NCBI GenBank assembly: GCA_001303705.1
Contig: LJUI01000080.1
Coordinates: 1-11,121, forward strand
Origin: a candidate division TA06 bacterium SM23_40
GTDB taxonomy: Bacteria > LJUI01 > SM1-40
Length of the DNA: 11,121 nucleotides
Direction of reading: 5' to 3'
Below are positions 112 through 8,551 of the stretch, piece after piece. The first letter of the stretch is position 1. The number at the start of each line of letters is the position of its first letter. The notes beneath the pieces were generated by a model. It saw only the letters and a list, made by a program, of their open reading frames with translations. It was not told the origin of the DNA and searched no databases. Made by a program: the position numbers and the translations under genes.

Positions 112-2532
112 CTAGCCTCGATCAGTGGCCACCGGAAGGAAGACCGACACGGTCGTCCCCACTCCCACGGAGCTCTCCACCCGGGCGAACCCGCCGTGAG
201 TCTTGAGGACCCGATCCGCCCCAGCCAGCCCAAGACCAGTGCCGCACTCTTTCGTGGTGTAGAATGGGGTGAATATCTTGGAGATGTCTTTGGAGGGAAT
301 GCCGACGCCGGTGTCGCAGATATCGATGCGCACATAGCTGCCGGTCATCGCTTCACTCCGCACCCGCTGCCCGACCGGCGCTGCACTTGCTGTTGCAGCG
401 TCGAAACCCTCCTGTACCGTCCAGACGGTGGCCGCCTCATCCCGCCTGGAAGCGGTGATGTCGTCGGCGCTCGCTCTGCCAGCGTACGCAATCAGTTCGC
501 CGCCGTCCGGCATCGCCTGAATTGCGTTGATGATGATATTGAGCAGCACTCCGACGATCTGCGCCTCATTCATCATCACCATGTGGAGATCCTCTCGGAA
601 ATCCCTGTGCACGAGGATCTTCCGCTCCTCCAGTTCATCTGCCACCAGAGAGAGTGCCTGCTCGACGGCGGCCCGTACGTCGCCGCGGTGCATTGCATAA
701 CGATGTGGCTTGGCATATTGCAGTAGCTCGTCGACGAGGCCGTTCAGTCTCACCACCTCGTCCGAAAGGATCCGCAGAGACTCCTCACGACGCCCTTCGA
801 TATGCCACTCCCTCTCAAGGAGACGGAGGTAGTTCTTCATGATCGTCATCGGGTGCCGGAGATCGTGGGCAATCTCGGAGACCATCTCTCCCATTGTTGC
901 CAGCTGACGGGCCTTCGAGATCTCACTCGATTGCTCGTACAGCGATACGGCCTGGGAGGCCACGATCGAGAGGAGCTGACGGTTTTCGTCGGAGAATGCC
1001 CGCGGATCCGAACTTCCCACCCAGAAGATCCCACGCAGCCGACCCTGTACCACTACGGGTGCGGCCACAAATGATCGCAGCCCGGGATCTTCCCCTGCCG
1101 CTTCCTGCAACAGATGCTCCACCTTGAGCGTGACGGGCGAACGAGCCGATCCGCCCCGCATCCTGTTGAAGAATTCACAACAGGAACAATCCTTGACGCA
1201 CCCCACACCCTCGGCGGGGACGGCACCGATCCACCTCGGTCGTGCAACAAGCCAACAGGCCCGGCCCAGCCGGAGCCTGAACGCGGGGCAGTGCTCCCGC
1301 CTGTTCGAAGTGCACCCCATCTCCTCCCAGCAGTTAGCGCCGAGATCGCCCCGGTCCTCCATCTCCAGCGTCAGACCTTCAATCTGGCGCAGCGAACGCT
1401 GCGAGACACCGCGCGCAAACTCGGTCTCCAATCGATCCGTCTCCTCATCCCAGGCCAGCCACATGCACTGCTCCACGGGAGCAATTTGTTCCAGGCCGGC
1501 CACAATGATGTCGATCGTCTTCTCCAGCGTATCGACCGACCCGATGGCGCACGCGATCTGGTACAGCGCCGAGAGCTCGGTCAACCTCCGATTCATGGCG
1601 GCGAAGAGTTCCGCACGCTCCACAGCCATGGCCGCCTGAGCGGCGAAGGTCGTCAGCATCCTCAGATCGTCTTGTGTGAACGAACCCCCGGAAACCTTGT
1701 CCGACATGTTGAGGACGCCGAGCACGCGATCCCCAACCCGGAGGGGTACGGACATGAGAGACCGAGTCTCATACCGAGGTCGATTCTTCCGCCCGAATCG
1801 TGCATCAGTCTCCACATCCTCAATCAGCAGGGGCGTGTTCGCATCCGCTACATACCCCGCAATCCCCTCACCAGGGCGCACTATCGTCTCCCGCACCGTC
1901 TCATCATCGAGTCCGACGGCGGCCCGGATCATCAGTCTCTCGCCAGGCTCATCGAGCAGCATCACTGACCCCATCCGTGCTGATACCACGCTCGCTGCAA
2001 GGTCGACGACGTTCGCCAGGAGGCGGTCGACATCGAGTGTAGATATCAGGGCCGCGCCGGCCCGGTGCAGGGCATCGAGATCGGTGAGCTTCTCCGCCAG
2101 CTCAACGTTCCTGGTCTCAAGAGCGCCGAGTAGCTCCTTCTCCCGGGCCTCGGCACGCCTCACCTCCACTGCACGCTCTACAGCAGTCAATACATCGCGA
2201 ATCGCAACAGGCTTCACAAGGTAGTCGAACGCCCCCTTCTGCACAGCCCGAATCGCTGATCCGAGGGAGGCGTACCCGGTAACGATAATAACCCGTAGCC
2301 GAGGATCGGTACGGGCGATGTGGTCAAGGAGGCCGAGCCCGTCGGTCCCCTCCAGTTTCAGATCGGTGAGGACGACGTCGAACGCACGGGTGTGGAGCAG
2401 CTCGATCGCGCTGCCCGCATCGCCGACCGTCGAGACCTCGTACCCTTCATCTTCGAGGATCCCGCCCAGGCTCTCGCAACTGGCCGGGTCATCGTCCACG
2501 AGAAGAACCCTACCCGCATGCTCTTGCTCCAT
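112..2532 (-). CDS. sensor histidine kinase with N-terminal receiver domain, two GAF domains and a cysteine cluster
   Basis: Soluble 806-aa signalling kinase; no membrane segment is visible, so it is probably cytoplasmic. Domain order: receiver (about 8-122; acidic DDD at 13-15, phosphoacceptor D57 in LTDLKL, T85, K107); coiled linker (125-155); GAF (about 160-308); second GAF-like region (about 320-532) that contains a CW/Cys cluster; HisKA with H556 in IAHDLRHP; HATPase with N-box N665/N669, G1 box DTGVGIP (740-746), F-box FTPFYTTK and G2 box GTGLGL. The ATG at 2532 is chosen because GGAGG lies 4 bases upstream; a start 12 codons earlier is possible but has no ribosome site. The receiver in front of the kinase suggests that another kinase can feed into it. 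No output domain or DNA-binding domain is present, and its partner regulator is not in the window. A stretch of about 45 extra residues interrupts the ATPase domain. The ligands of the GAF domains are unknown. Confidence 0.93.
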   Translation of the reverse strand: MEQEHAGRVLLVDDDPASCESLGGILEDEGYEVSTVGDAGSAIELLHTRAFDVVLTDLKLEGTDGLGLLDHIARTDPRLRVIIVTGYASLGSAIRAVQKGAFDYLVKPVAIRDVLTAVERAVEVRRAEAREKELLGALETRNVELAEKLTDLDALHRAGAALISTLDVDRLLANVVDLAASVVSARMGSVMLLDEPGERLMIRAAVGLDDETVRETIVRPGEGIAGYVADANTPLLIEDVETDARFGRKNRPRYETRSLMSVPLRVGDRVLGVLNMSDKVSGGSFTQDDLRMLTTFAAQAAMAVERAELFAAMNRRLTELSALYQIACAIGSVDTLEKTIDIIVAGLEQIAPVEQCMWLAWDEETDRLETEFARGVSQRSLRQIEGLTLEMEDRGDLGANCWEEMGCTSNRREHCPAFRLRLGRACWLVARPRWIGAVPAEGVGCVKDCSCCEFFNRMRGGSARSPVTLKVEHLLQEAAGEDPGLRSFVAAPVVVQGRLRGIFWVGSSDPRAFSDENRQLLSIVASQAVSLYEQSSEISKARQLATMGEMVSEIAHDLRHPMTIMKNYLRLLEREWHIEGRREESLRILSDEVVRLNGLVDELLQYAKPHRYAMHRGDVRAAVEQALSLVADELEERKILVHRDFREDLHMVMMNEAQIVGVLLNIIINAIQAMPDGGELIAYAGRASADDITASRRDEAATVWTVQEGFDAATASAAPVGQRVRSEAMTGSYVRIDICDTGVGIPSKDISKIFTPFYTTKECGTGLGLAGADRVLKTHGGFARVESSVGVGTTVSVFLPVATDRG

Positions 2533-2536
2533 CTTT

Positions 2537-2541
2537 CCTCC
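2537..2541 (-). promoter_or_regulatory. ribosome binding site of the histidine kinase gene
   Basis: GGAGG on the minus strand, 4 bases before the ATG at 2532. It decides between this start and the in-frame codon 36 bases upstream, which has no such site. Confidence 0.7.
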
Positions 2542-2579
2542 ATTGATGGCATGATGCACGGAGGACAAGGCCCATGCAC

Positions 2580-2608
2580 ATAGTAACCAGAGTCTCTCCG
2601 CCTGTCAA
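2580..2608 (-). promoter_or_regulatory. sigma-70-type promoter of the histidine kinase gene
   Basis: On the minus strand, TTGACA (2608-2603), a 17-base spacer, then TACTAT (2585-2580). This is a perfect -35 box and a -10 box with one mismatch to consensus. The predicted transcription start is near 2573, leaving a leader of about 40 bases before the ATG at 2532. Confidence 0.75.
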
Positions 2609-2627
2609 TATCGAAATGCCTCCGGAT

Positions 2628-2690
2628 TTGATGATCCATATCTATTAAGAATACAGTGCCTTATATGATCGAGTTAATGCTGATCATCAA
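2628..2690. repeat. 9-bp inverted repeat in an AT-rich patch between divergent genes
   Basis: TTGATGATC (2628-2636) is repeated as the perfect inverted copy GATCATCAA (2682-2690). The arm centres are 54 bases apart, about five helical turns. The patch between the arms is markedly more AT-rich than the surroundings. It lies upstream of the kinase -35 box, at roughly -55 to -117, where an activator or architectural protein could bind. Operator function is inference. Confidence 0.4.
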
Positions 2691-2818
2691 CTATCGGCCC
2701 GGGCGGTATGTCGGGCGGCTGCAGATTTTCGGAAGGGAAACGCATACCGGCCGGCTCTTGCCCGGCGCGCTGTCGAGGACGAGGATCCGGGCGAAATAGA
2801 GGCCGAAGAAACATCTAC

Positions 2819-2847
2819 TTGACGAACCCCCTCTGGTATGGTAGGAT
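2819..2847 (+). promoter_or_regulatory. sigma-70-type promoter of the MshEN-like gene
   Basis: TTGACG (2819-2824), a 17-base spacer, then TAGGAT (2842-2847) preceded by TG one base away (2839-2840), an extended -10. The predicted transcription start is near 2854, giving a leader of about 85 bases. The leader contains a small AGAGA-CTA-TCTCT hairpin at 2884-2896. The stretch 2691-2818 further upstream is GC-rich and I see no gene in it. Confidence 0.65.
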
Positions 2848-2937
2848 ACAGCCAACAACTCTCGTGGCACAGGATCAGGCTTCAGAGACTATCTCTCACA
2901 GTGCCGCTATTACAGCACCAGATCGGGGGTGAGGATC

Positions 2938-3144
2938 GTGGCGATTAGGAGGAAGTTGCTGGGAGACATCCTGGTCTCTACGGGTGCCGTCCAGGTCGGG
3001 GATCTGACCATGGCCCTTGAGACGCAGAAGGCAATGCGCTCTCAGGGGGTCGAGATGAGAATCGGCGCAATACTTCTCGAGGCCGGGCACATCAAACGCC
3101 ATCAGCTCGACGAAGCGCTCCGCCTCCAGGGTACCGTGGCATAG
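2938..3144 (+). CDS. stand-alone MshEN-like (type II secretion ATPase N-terminal type) small protein
   Basis: 68-aa protein built almost entirely of two 24-residue repeats: residues 7-30 (LLGDILVSTG...DLTMALETQ) and 41-64 (RIGAILLEAG...QLDEALRLQ). Both follow the pattern xLGxxLVxxGxIxxxxLxxALxxQ of the MshEN domain found at the N-terminus of MshE/PilB/GspE ATPases, where it binds cyclic di-GMP. In the first repeat the leading Arg is Leu, and the spacer is 10 residues rather than the 5 I recall as typical. There is no ATPase domain, signal peptide or membrane segment. The GTG at 2938 is preferred over the GTG at 2929 because GGGGGTGA lies at a suitable distance before it. It is transcribed divergently from the histidine kinase, with its own promoter. 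The family assignment is from the repeat pattern; ligand binding is inference. Confidence 0.75.
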   Translation: MAIRRKLLGDILVSTGAVQVGDLTMALETQKAMRSQGVEMRIGAILLEAGHIKRHQLDEALRLQGTVA

Positions 3145-3222
3145 GCGAGATCAAGGGGTGAATGGCCTGTTCTGTACGCGGGGAGGAGAGCGCCCCTGAC
3201 TGCGGATCGGGATCTCGGCAGG
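3145..3222. other. convergent intergenic region with inverted repeats
   Basis: Gap between the 3' ends of the small plus-strand gene and purM. CGAGATC (3146-3152) pairs with GATCTCG (3211-3217), and a GGGG/CCCC pair (about 3180-3195) lies inside, so a branched hairpin is possible. No T-run follows on either strand, so a bidirectional terminator is only a weak suggestion. Confidence 0.25.
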
Positions 3223-4254
3223 TCAACGGAGGACTACCTGCCCATCCCCTTCGGTTATCCGTCCGATGACCTGAGCCCGTTCGCCGTGCCGCTCAAGTTC
3301 GGCGCACACCAGAGGTACCTTCTCCGGCTCCACGGTGAGCACAAATCCGATACCCATATTGAAGACCCGGAACATCTCCTCTTTTTCGACCGGACCATGC
3401 TCCGCGAGAAAGGAGAAGATCTTCGGGGTCTCCCATGAATTGGTGTCCAACTCCGCGCTCAGACCCGAGGGGAGAACCCTGGGGAGGTTCTCTACCAGAC
3501 CGCCGCCGGTGATGTGAGCCATCCCGCTGACCATCCCCCTGTCGAGAAGCCCCAGGACAGAATCCCCGTACCAGCGATGGATCTTGAGCAGTTCCTCCTT
3601 CACCGAGCAGTCCCAGCCCTCAGGCACATCGTCAAGACCGAGTCTCTGACGCTCAAACAGTATCGCCCGGGCGAGCGAGTATCCATTGGTGTGCAGGCCG
3701 TTGGAGGCGAGCCCGATCACCTTGTGCCCACTGCGGATAGCAGTGCCATCGATGATCTTCCTACCGTCCACGATGCCCACTATGAATCCGACGAGGTCGT
3801 AATCCTTCCCCTGGTAGAATCCAGGCATCTCGGCCGTCTCGCCGCCGATCAATGCACACCCGACGGTCTGACATCCCGTGACAAAGCCCCTCAGTACGCC
3901 CGCCGTCGTCTCTTCGTCCAGCTTCCCGCTCGCCACATAGTCCAGAAAGAAGAGCGGGCGGGCACCGTGGACAAGGATGTCATTCGCGCAGTGATGAACG
4001 AGATCCTGCCCCACGGTATTGTGAATACGGGCAGCGAAGGCGACCCTCAGCTTCGTCCCCACACCATCGACGCTGGCGGCGAGAACAGGAACCTCGAGGT
4101 CGCCAAGATCTGCACGATACAGACCGGCGAAGCGGCCGACGGCTCCGAGGACTCGATCATCGAATGTCTTCGCTATCTCCGCCTTCATGCGGGCCATCGC
4201 CGCATGCACGGTATCGCGGTCAACACCAGCATCCCGGTACCGCAGTTCCCTCAT
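3223..4254 (-). CDS. purM: phosphoribosylformylglycinamidine cyclo-ligase (AIR synthetase)
   Basis: Catalyses the ATP-dependent ring closure of FGAM to 5-aminoimidazole ribonucleotide in de novo purine synthesis; cytoplasmic dimer. The 343-aa length matches the family. Recognisable blocks: N-terminal YRDAGVD, DGVGTK at 63-68, NDILVHGARP at 91-100, GGETAEMPGFY at 136-146, and C-terminal HITGGGLVENLPRVLP and FNMGIGF. I take the ATG at 4254 because GGGGAGG sits 6 bases before it; the in-frame ATG at 4260 abuts that site, and starts further upstream add a tail without homologous features. It lies 111 bases downstream of the hypothetical gene on the same strand and probably shares its promoter, although a run of seven Ts in between could attenuate transcription. 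No other purine gene is nearby. Confidence 0.97.
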   Translation of the reverse strand: MRELRYRDAGVDRDTVHAAMARMKAEIAKTFDDRVLGAVGRFAGLYRADLGDLEVPVLAASVDGVGTKLRVAFAARIHNTVGQDLVHHCANDILVHGARPLFFLDYVASGKLDEETTAGVLRGFVTGCQTVGCALIGGETAEMPGFYQGKDYDLVGFIVGIVDGRKIIDGTAIRSGHKVIGLASNGLHTNGYSLARAILFERQRLGLDDVPEGWDCSVKEELLKIHRWYGDSVLGLLDRGMVSGMAHITGGGLVENLPRVLPSGLSAELDTNSWETPKIFSFLAEHGPVEKEEMFRVFNMGIGFVLTVEPEKVPLVCAELERHGERAQVIGRITEGDGQVVLR

Positions 4255-4260
4255 GATCAT

Positions 4261-4267
4261 CCTCCCC
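4261..4267 (-). promoter_or_regulatory. ribosome binding site of purM
   Basis: GGGGAGG on the minus strand, 6 bases before the ATG at 4254. It settles the start between two ATG codons six bases apart. Confidence 0.7.
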
Positions 4268-4285
4268 ATTCCCAGGGATGGAGCC

Positions 4286-4330
4286 AAAAAAAGGAGTCCC
4301 TCGGGTGAGGCCATACGCGGCGGCCGCCGC
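4286..4330 (-). other. 14-bp palindrome and seven-T run between the hypothetical gene and purM
   Basis: Reading leftwards, the perfect palindrome GCGGCGGCCGCCGC (4330-4317) is followed by a weak CCTC/GAGG hairpin (4310-4302) and then seven Ts (4292-4286). The layout vaguely resembles an intrinsic terminator or attenuator ahead of purM, but the hairpin has only 4 bp and sits 6 bases from the T-run. Confidence 0.25.
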
Positions 4331-4365: not shown

Positions 4366-5034
4366 TCATTCGCTCGATTTGACTGTGAGGACCCCCATGT
4401 ATCTGTTCACAGCATCGAGTGTCGCCGAAGCCGATGCCTCATGAGGATCGCGACGTACGATCGATGCCCCGACGAGATCCATCCTGGCCCGCGGCAGTAT
4501 GATGGTGAGCGGCACCACAACGACCTTCTGGCTCCCCATGGTGAGGGACGCCACATCGTTGATGACGAAACAGCACTCCTCAGTAAGATATCCCTTGAGT
4601 GCCGCAGCGGTGGCATGTGCAGTCAGCTTCAGGATGGTTTCCCCGTCGCTCGGCCCCGTGGTGGTGGCGACAGACTCCTTCCCATTGAACAGAAGCCGCA
4701 CCTGCACCCGACAGATCAGACCTGACATCCAGAGCTCGACATTGCCGAGCTCGACCCTGCCCACGCCCGGGAGAGCGCGGACCTTGCCATCCCTCGGCCC
4801 GACCTGGGCGACGCTCACGATCCTGTGATTTATGCGCAATCCCAGCTGCGTGAGAAGAGCAGATTCGACATCCCGCACGATCTGCTTGGGGGGCCGATCG
4901 ACTCCGGAGAGGATGTGTATCTCCTTCAGATCACCGTCGTTATCAACGACAACACGAGCTTCTACCACGTCGCTCAACTGGCAGATAGCTCGCTCAATAT
5001 CCCCTGCATCGAGCTCGATGCGTTCGTCGGACAT
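4366..5034 (-). CDS. conserved hypothetical two-domain protein upstream of purM
   Basis: 222-aa soluble protein of unknown function; no signal peptide or membrane segment. The N-terminal domain (about 10-80) has a beta-alpha pattern with EARVVVDNDGDLKEIHIL followed by DRPPKQIVRDVESALL (46-61) and a strand RIVSVAQV (71-78). After a linker, the C-terminal domain (about 105-215) has strands around VQVRLLFNGKES, a helix LTAHATAAALKGYL (137-150), further strands, then the similar helix SATLDAVNRYM (203-213), suggesting an internal alpha/beta repeat. The RPPKQIVRDVES block and the final ATLDAVN block look like those of uncharacterised proteins I have seen in other bacteria, but I know no function. 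The ATG at 5034 follows an AGAGGAG site about 11 bases upstream. Its own promoter sits just after argS, and purM follows on the same strand. Confidence 0.85.
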   Translation of the reverse strand: MSDERIELDAGDIERAICQLSDVVEARVVVDNDGDLKEIHILSGVDRPPKQIVRDVESALLTQLGLRINHRIVSVAQVGPRDGKVRALPGVGRVELGNVELWMSGLICRVQVRLLFNGKESVATTTGPSDGETILKLTAHATAAALKGYLTEECCFVINDVASLTMGSQKVVVVPLTIILPRARMDLVGASIVRRDPHEASASATLDAVNRYMGVLTVKSSE

Positions 5035-5119
5035 CAGGGCACCGCTCCTCTGGAATAGCCGACCGTACCTCCGCTCCCGCCCAACTACCGATAGAACTGC
5101 CGCGCGATCCCATCGGGGC

Positions 5120-5148
5120 ACTCTACCACACTACCCTCAGCTTGTCAA
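5120..5148 (-). promoter_or_regulatory. sigma-70-type promoter for the hypothetical gene and purM
   Basis: On the minus strand, TTGACA (5148-5143), a 17-base spacer ending in TGG, then TAGAGT (5125-5120): a perfect -35 and an extended -10. It begins 20 bases past the argS stop, and no terminator is visible between, so read-through from argS may add to it. The predicted start is near 5113, with a leader of about 80 bases. Confidence 0.75.
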
Positions 5149-7792: not shown

Positions 7793-8551
7793 TCATCGAT
7801 ATTTCCTGGATGCCCCCACACGTGATCGCAGAATCGCCTCTGCCTCAGCGAGTTGCTCCGGCGTGTTGATGCCTGATATCTCAGCGGCATCCTCGGTGCG
7901 GACGGCGGCAACTCGTTCCCCATCCTCCACGAATAGACCGATTGCGTCCGTCAGGTAGTATTCCTCCTGGCGGTTGTCCGGCCGGATCCTCTCGAGCACC
8001 GAGAAGAGCTTACGAGAGTCGAAGACATAAATGCCCGAGTTGATCTCCTTTGTCAGACGCACTTCTTCGGACGCGTCGGCATCTTCAACGATGGCCGACA
8101 CCTCACCGCTTTCACCCCTCAGTACACGTCCGTAGCCCTCCGGGTGATCAACCTCTGCAGTCAGCACCGTTGCCGCGGCCCCAGTCTGACTGTGCGCGTC
8201 GAGCAGTAGTTCGAGCGTGCCGATGCGGAGGAGCGGCACGTCCCCGTACAGCACGAGCAATCCCCCATCGAAGGAGCCCAACGCCTCCCTGGCGACCGAT
8301 ACTGCGTGTCCCGTCCCCAGTTGCTCTTCCTGCTCGACGAACTCGACCGGATGACCTGCACACGCATCCCTCACGCGGTCGGCCTGATGTCCGATGACGA
8401 CGACGGTGCGCTGGAGATCGATCTGCTCCACCGTGCGAAGAAGGTGGAGCAGCATCGGTTCGCCGCAGAGCTCATGGAGCACCTTGGCCAGCGTGGACTT
8501 GAACCGCGTCCCCTCCCCGGCAGCCAGTATCAGAGCGGCCCGATGACTCAT
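7793..8551 (-). CDS. GlmU-type N-acetylglucosamine-1-phosphate uridyltransferase, uridyltransferase domain only
   Basis: 252-aa nucleotidyltransferase, homologous to the N-terminal half of GlmU, which makes UDP-GlcNAc from GlcNAc-1-P and UTP for peptidoglycan and lipopolysaccharide. Seen: LAAGEGTRFKS (9-19) with K23 in AKVLH, EQLGTGHAV (76-84), YGDVPLL (102-108) with metal ligand D104, EGYGRVLR, KEINSGIYVFD, YYLTDAI and GINTPEQLAEAEAIL with N229 (the second metal ligand position). Normal GlmU has about 450 aa; the left-handed beta-helix acetyltransferase half is missing, and no hexapeptide repeats occur downstream. The usual PKVLH is AKVLH here. Start ATG 8551 lies 2 bases after the panD stop, with AGGGAG inside the panD end, so translation is coupled. 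A related sugar-phosphate substrate cannot be excluded. Confidence 0.93.
   Translation of the reverse strand: MSHRAALILAAGEGTRFKSTLAKVLHELCGEPMLLHLLRTVEQIDLQRTVVVIGHQADRVRDACAGHPVEFVEQEEQLGTGHAVSVAREALGSFDGGLLVLYGDVPLLRIGTLELLLDAHSQTGAAATVLTAEVDHPEGYGRVLRGESGEVSAIVEDADASEEVRLTKEINSGIYVFDSRKLFSVLERIRPDNRQEEYYLTDAIGLFVEDGERVAAVRTEDAAEISGINTPEQLAEAEAILRSRVGASRKYR

Follow-up and report, generated by a model that had tools for sequence, protein, structure and literature searches.

A short gene in the 11,121-nt contig of candidate division TA06 bacterium SM23_40 analyzed here (the window) encodes a 68-aa protein that is an MshEN_N domain and essentially nothing else. The type of pocket is already known, and the stand-alone form is recurrent but has rarely been noted. 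A role as a receptor for cyclic di-GMP (c-di-GMP) is plausible, and our overall best reading, which draws on analogy and to which we give a probability of about 0.55, is that the protein would be a single-domain c-di-GMP receptor working as a small adaptor, much as single-domain PilZ proteins do.

An MshEN_N domain with nothing attached

The reading frame opens with GTG, and an in-frame GTG at 2929 is an alternative start that would extend the product to 71 aa. Its codon log-odds of +0.38 per codon compare with 0.34 ± 0.11 for the true frames of neighboring genes and −0.23 ± 0.25 for wrong frames; it is a real gene with codon usage like that of its neighbors. A gap of 369 bp separates it from a divergent hybrid kinase gene, and 78 bp lie between its stop codon and convergent purM (Table 1). 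No continuation of the MshEN_N domain was seen in any frame of these 78 bp, and the protein carries no T2SSE ATPase domain such as would place it with PilB or GspE. Because the gene stands alone between a divergent kinase and a convergent purM, there is no ATPase or other domain that could be attached to it. A promoter-like site about 90 bases 5′ of the GTG start is a candidate from a consensus scan only. An Rfam search of the intergenic regions of 2400–3400, with E values up to 1 admitted, yielded neither a c-di-GMP riboswitch nor any other RNA. Elsewhere in the window, a 251-aa protein encoded in the purM–argS interval (4366–5121, −) has no Pfam or NCBIfam match, and a GlmU-like nucleotidyltransferase (7793–8551, −) is only 252 aa long and lacks the hexapeptide acetyltransferase part.

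Table 1. Location of the gene, its motifs and neighbors, and the host PilB pair (window positions unless a locus is given)
Feature	Position	Strand	Basis
68-aa open reading frame, GTG start; stop codon 3142–3144	2938–3144	+	
MshEN motif I, residues 7–30, LLGDILVSTGAVQVGDLTMALETQ	2956–3027	+	Sequence
10-residue spacer KAMRSQGVEM, residues 31–40	3028–3057	+	Sequence
MshEN motif II, residues 41–64, RIGAILLEAGHIKRHQLDEALRLQ	3058–3129	+	Sequence, aligned to MshE
Divergent neighbor, response receiver-GAF-GAF-HisKA-HATPase hybrid kinase	112–2568	−	Pfam
Convergent neighbor, purM	3223–4314	−	Pfam AIRS/AIRS_C
Promoter-like site TTGACG-17-TAGGAT, extended −10	2819–2847	+	Consensus scan, 9/12 matches
Two host PilB ATPases with MshEN, side by side	L048 (contig C101) 4156–5862, 5918–7705	−	

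A profile search, which the initial annotation had proposed as a check of MshEN membership, came out positive in one collection and negative in the other. NCBIfam NF053729 (MshE-related c-di-GMP-binding motif), a 53-position model of the tandem motif itself, scores the protein at 43.9 bits (cut-off 38, E 1.4e-11), and the match is split into two stretches, for which the long spacer is probably responsible; in a whole-genome search with this model the protein fell short of E 1e-6. A profile built from 43 MshEN_N sequences of larger proteins, which excluded the window protein and whose loci were first found by searches using that protein and then picked by the general motif, scored 54.6 bits, compared with 13.9 bits for the best of 20,000 residue shuffles and 2.2 bits for the next best reading frame of the window. 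The Pfam model named MshEN (PF05157), in contrast, gave no match over the gathering score, and Pfam assigns the protein no family. In the two PilB proteins of the host, PF05157 spans residues 57–142 and 89–175, and the tandem motif occupies residues 4–56 and 36–88, respectively; at least in the proteins scanned, the Pfam model describes the C-terminal subdomain. It misses the 68-aa protein because it covers this post-motif subdomain, which is lacking here, and the Pfam result, at first an apparent refutation, is therefore technical. As a membership test PF05157 is misleading, since the model begins where the motif ends. Matches to DUF4388, DUF2551, and PPR_3 were weak and under cut-off, and were rejected. 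The weak DUF4388 matches of free-standing proteins are explained by the ability of DUF4388-type proteins to embed the c-di-GMP motif; such an arrangement is found at L087:4224–4634 (+), where NF053729 scores 53.4 bits, and at L088 (G267:C1).

An AlphaFold2 model of the protein (pLDDT 88.6) predicts four helices, at residues 8–14, 20–35, 42–48, and 54–66, and matches Vibrio cholerae MshE with bound c-di-GMP (PDB 5htl) with a Z-score of 10.6 and an rmsd of 1.8 Å over 60 residues. The nearest solved structures are c-di-GMP-bound MshE and the GSPII-B domain of Thermus thermophilus PilF (Z 10.6–8.3), below which come a PilB N-domain of the non-binding type (Z 8.0) and unrelated folds at 4.6 and lower; Foldseek also returned MshE and PilF GSPII-B as top matches (best E 0.045, probability 1.00). 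The two profiles, the four-helix model, and the nearby purM bear out the earlier proposals that the protein belongs to MshEN, stands free, and would fold as two linked helical repeats. The MshEN_N of MshE shares with it two 24-residue motifs, a four-helix bundle, and most contact residues. MshE differs in that both of its motifs begin with Arg, its spacer is 5 residues long, and it also carries an MshEN_C subdomain and an ATPase. The fold is likewise shared by PilF GSPII-B, wild type and K167L (8pdk, 8pe0), in which a motif also begins with Leu, but this domain is one of three GSPII domains in an ATPase of 889 aa and has a C-terminal subdomain.

The tandem motif and probable c-di-GMP binding

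The two 24-residue motifs and their spacer account for 58 of the 68 residues, the rest being short ends, so that the initial annotation was right to see tandem MshEN motifs filling nearly the whole protein. It was also right that the first residue of motif I is Leu and not Arg and that the spacer has 10 residues rather than the 5 of MshE, but these features are not the anomalies it took them for. Both occur in attached domains: among 53 attached MshEN domains in the fetched loci, a sample biased toward relatives of the query, a motif begins with Leu in 10, and spacers of 5 to 11 residues are found. In PilF GSPII-B the first motif positions are Lys and Leu, and its KD for c-di-GMP is 6 nM; the engineered K167L, which puts Leu at the position it has in the window protein, lowers this to 2 nM, and the consensus (R/K/L)LG has been proposed (PMC11731258). 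Given this affinity and consensus, the Leu at position 1 of the window protein is expected, by analogy, to help and not to harm binding.

The protein agrees with the original consensus at 12 of the 14 contact or turn positions, and the conserved Gly, Leu, and Gln are present in the tandem motifs. Apart from the first-position Leu, it departs from the motif in having Ile for Leu at position 2 of motif II and Ala/His at position 11. Motif I fits the extended consensus (R/K/L)LG... (PMC11731258) apart from the Ala at position 11, and because this consensus admits Leu at position 1, the sole unmatched contact or turn position is the Leu to Ile of motif II; in a PilF construct, exchange of large hydrophobic contact residues (Ile/Leu) costs only 2.4-fold. 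PilF GSPII-C, with a spacer of 7 residues by our own count from the alignment, binds c-di-GMP at about 500 nM, and we found no measured affinity in the literature for an MshEN domain with a 10-residue spacer. The isolated VcMshEN_N (residues 1–62) binds c-di-GMP with a KD of 0.35 μM (PMC5013675), so the C-terminal subdomain is dispensable in that protein.

XpsE_N and PilF GSPII-A, in which the MshEN fold carries modest changes and c-di-GMP is not bound, count against binding here. By their example, the 68-aa protein could be an MshEN-fold protein-interaction module that has lost the ligand and docks, for instance, to a pilus or secretion component, and on contig C101 the host does encode a pair of PilB ATPases, next to which lie PilT- and PilC-like genes. 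We nevertheless consider such a module unlikely, since the Gly, the Gln, and most of the Leu contacts that XpsE_N and GSPII-A have lost are retained in the window protein. Binding of c-di-GMP by the 68-aa protein, judged from its motifs, is probable.

Free-standing copies in other lineages

Free-standing MshEN_N proteins occur in six lineages among the genomes searched (G030/G177/G313/G386; G003/G291; G129/G267, with two copies each; G303; G053; and the window). Those outside the window are 52 to 81 aa long and 29 to 40% identical to the window protein, and like it they have nothing attached. NF053729 matches were found in 91 of the 107 genomes searched, and free-standing proteins are a minority, because among the best matches listed only that of G053 (a 53-codon frame) is free-standing; the architecture is nonetheless recurrent in distant bacterial lineages. 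A dedicated description of a stand-alone or single-domain MshEN was not found in the literature, and the supplementary tables of PMC5013675 may list some.

The gene order era, free-standing MshEN_N, DUF192-like gene is kept in all four genomes of one phylum (G030, G177, G313, and G386; loci L043, L079, L080, and L096, with gene names read from the sequences). Like the window protein, this group has Leu at position 1 and a spacer of 10 residues. The window protein scores 31.6 bits against the group and 31.9 bits against an attached domain, and because these scores are equal they lend no support to common descent of the two free-standing forms. Within the group synonymous sites are saturated and dN is 0.20 to 0.55, values that are only consistent with purifying selection.

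The neighbors of the free-standing relatives differ from those in the window and include era and the DUF192-like gene, NAD(P)HX-repair-type, CRP-like, and lexA-like genes, and metabolic genes; no partner gene conserved beside the free-standing copies was found across different lineages. The functional link to the divergent kinase suggested in the initial annotation is an adjacency in one genome, the host's own being the one genome of its phylum in the set compared. Among the other free-standing copies that were examined, none had a kinase next to it, and the link is unsupported.

The same motif also appears in other small proteins. Two 106-aa proteins (L090:4200–4517, +; L089:4023–4340, −) have a ribbon-helix-helix-like N-terminus followed by the NF053729 c-di-GMP motif, with RHH_1 above cut-off in L090 only; from this arrangement they are possible c-di-GMP-responsive DNA-binding proteins. 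In a 124-codon frame at L091:300–479 (+) (G291:C4), an MshEN_N-like tandem motif comes after an N-terminus that is hydrophobic and membrane-like.

A proposed role as adaptor and its alternatives

The host genome (2.88 Mb, about 90% complete) encodes 9 GGDEF domains, 8 HD_5/HD-GYP-type domains, and 1 PilZ domain, and at that completeness no EAL domain was found in it. The GG[DE]EF signature is intact in at least five distinct GGDEF loci. Since both GGDEF and HD-GYP-type domains are encoded, c-di-GMP is probably made in this organism, and its production and removal are likely from the gene content. In the protein, the two half-sites of the four-helix bundle would jointly hold one c-di-GMP molecule, each guanine stacking on a leucine cluster and being hydrogen-bonded to the backbone at the motif glycine. 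Action through a separate protein, which would be bound or released according to the level of c-di-GMP, is most likely because the 68-aa protein has no output domain of its own. PlpA, a single-domain PilZ protein of Myxococcus xanthus (PMC8316039), offers an analogy in manner of working, being a small protein with one domain of c-di-GMP-receptor type and without an output domain, although the fold and binding motif of single-domain PilZ proteins are unrelated to those of MshEN_N. If c-di-GMP is bound, an adaptor role argued from this likeness would be a little more probable than the binding itself.

The lack of an output domain would also suit a sponge or buffer that binds c-di-GMP tightly without a partner and lowers the free messenger, as would the very tight binding that a position-1 Leu favors in PilF GSPII-B and the lack of a neighbor conserved across lineages. 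We regard this as improbable: a sponge would need abundance, and the fixed place after era in one phylum suits a specific role at least equally. The least likely alternative is that the gene is a functionless, perhaps transcribed, remnant of a truncated pilB or gspE gene, in keeping with an N-terminal (M)AIRRK that resembles the MAIRQK of a Nitrospinaceae PilB-like ATPase and with the transcribed 60-aa pilB reported in Paenibacillus thiaminolyticus B-4156, which likewise encodes a free-standing MshEN_N of about this length and stems, by its description, from truncation of a pilus operon that other strains keep intact (PMC9765702), but the frame is intact and its codon usage normal, no trace of the remaining ATPase lies downstream, identity to the host's own PilB is only 44% over 36 residues, and the closest relatives include free-standing copies with identical spacer length and Leu.

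For the adaptor reading, a broader form can be considered, in which free-standing MshEN_N proteins would make up a recurrent class of one-domain c-di-GMP adaptors, a counterpart of the single-domain PilZ proteins, missed by Pfam and tied to era in one phylum; we hold this to be doubtful. If the tie to era were true, it would link c-di-GMP to ribosome assembly or translation through the gene of a ribosome-assembly GTPase. A one-domain receptor of about 65 residues would also lend itself to measurements of the dependence of affinity on spacer length and on the first motif residue. Widespread receptor domains for c-di-GMP are few, and MshEN is one of them; surveys of such receptors commonly begin with Pfam or with attached effectors. 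Because PF05157 would miss free-standing copies, receptors in little-studied phyla may be undercounted.
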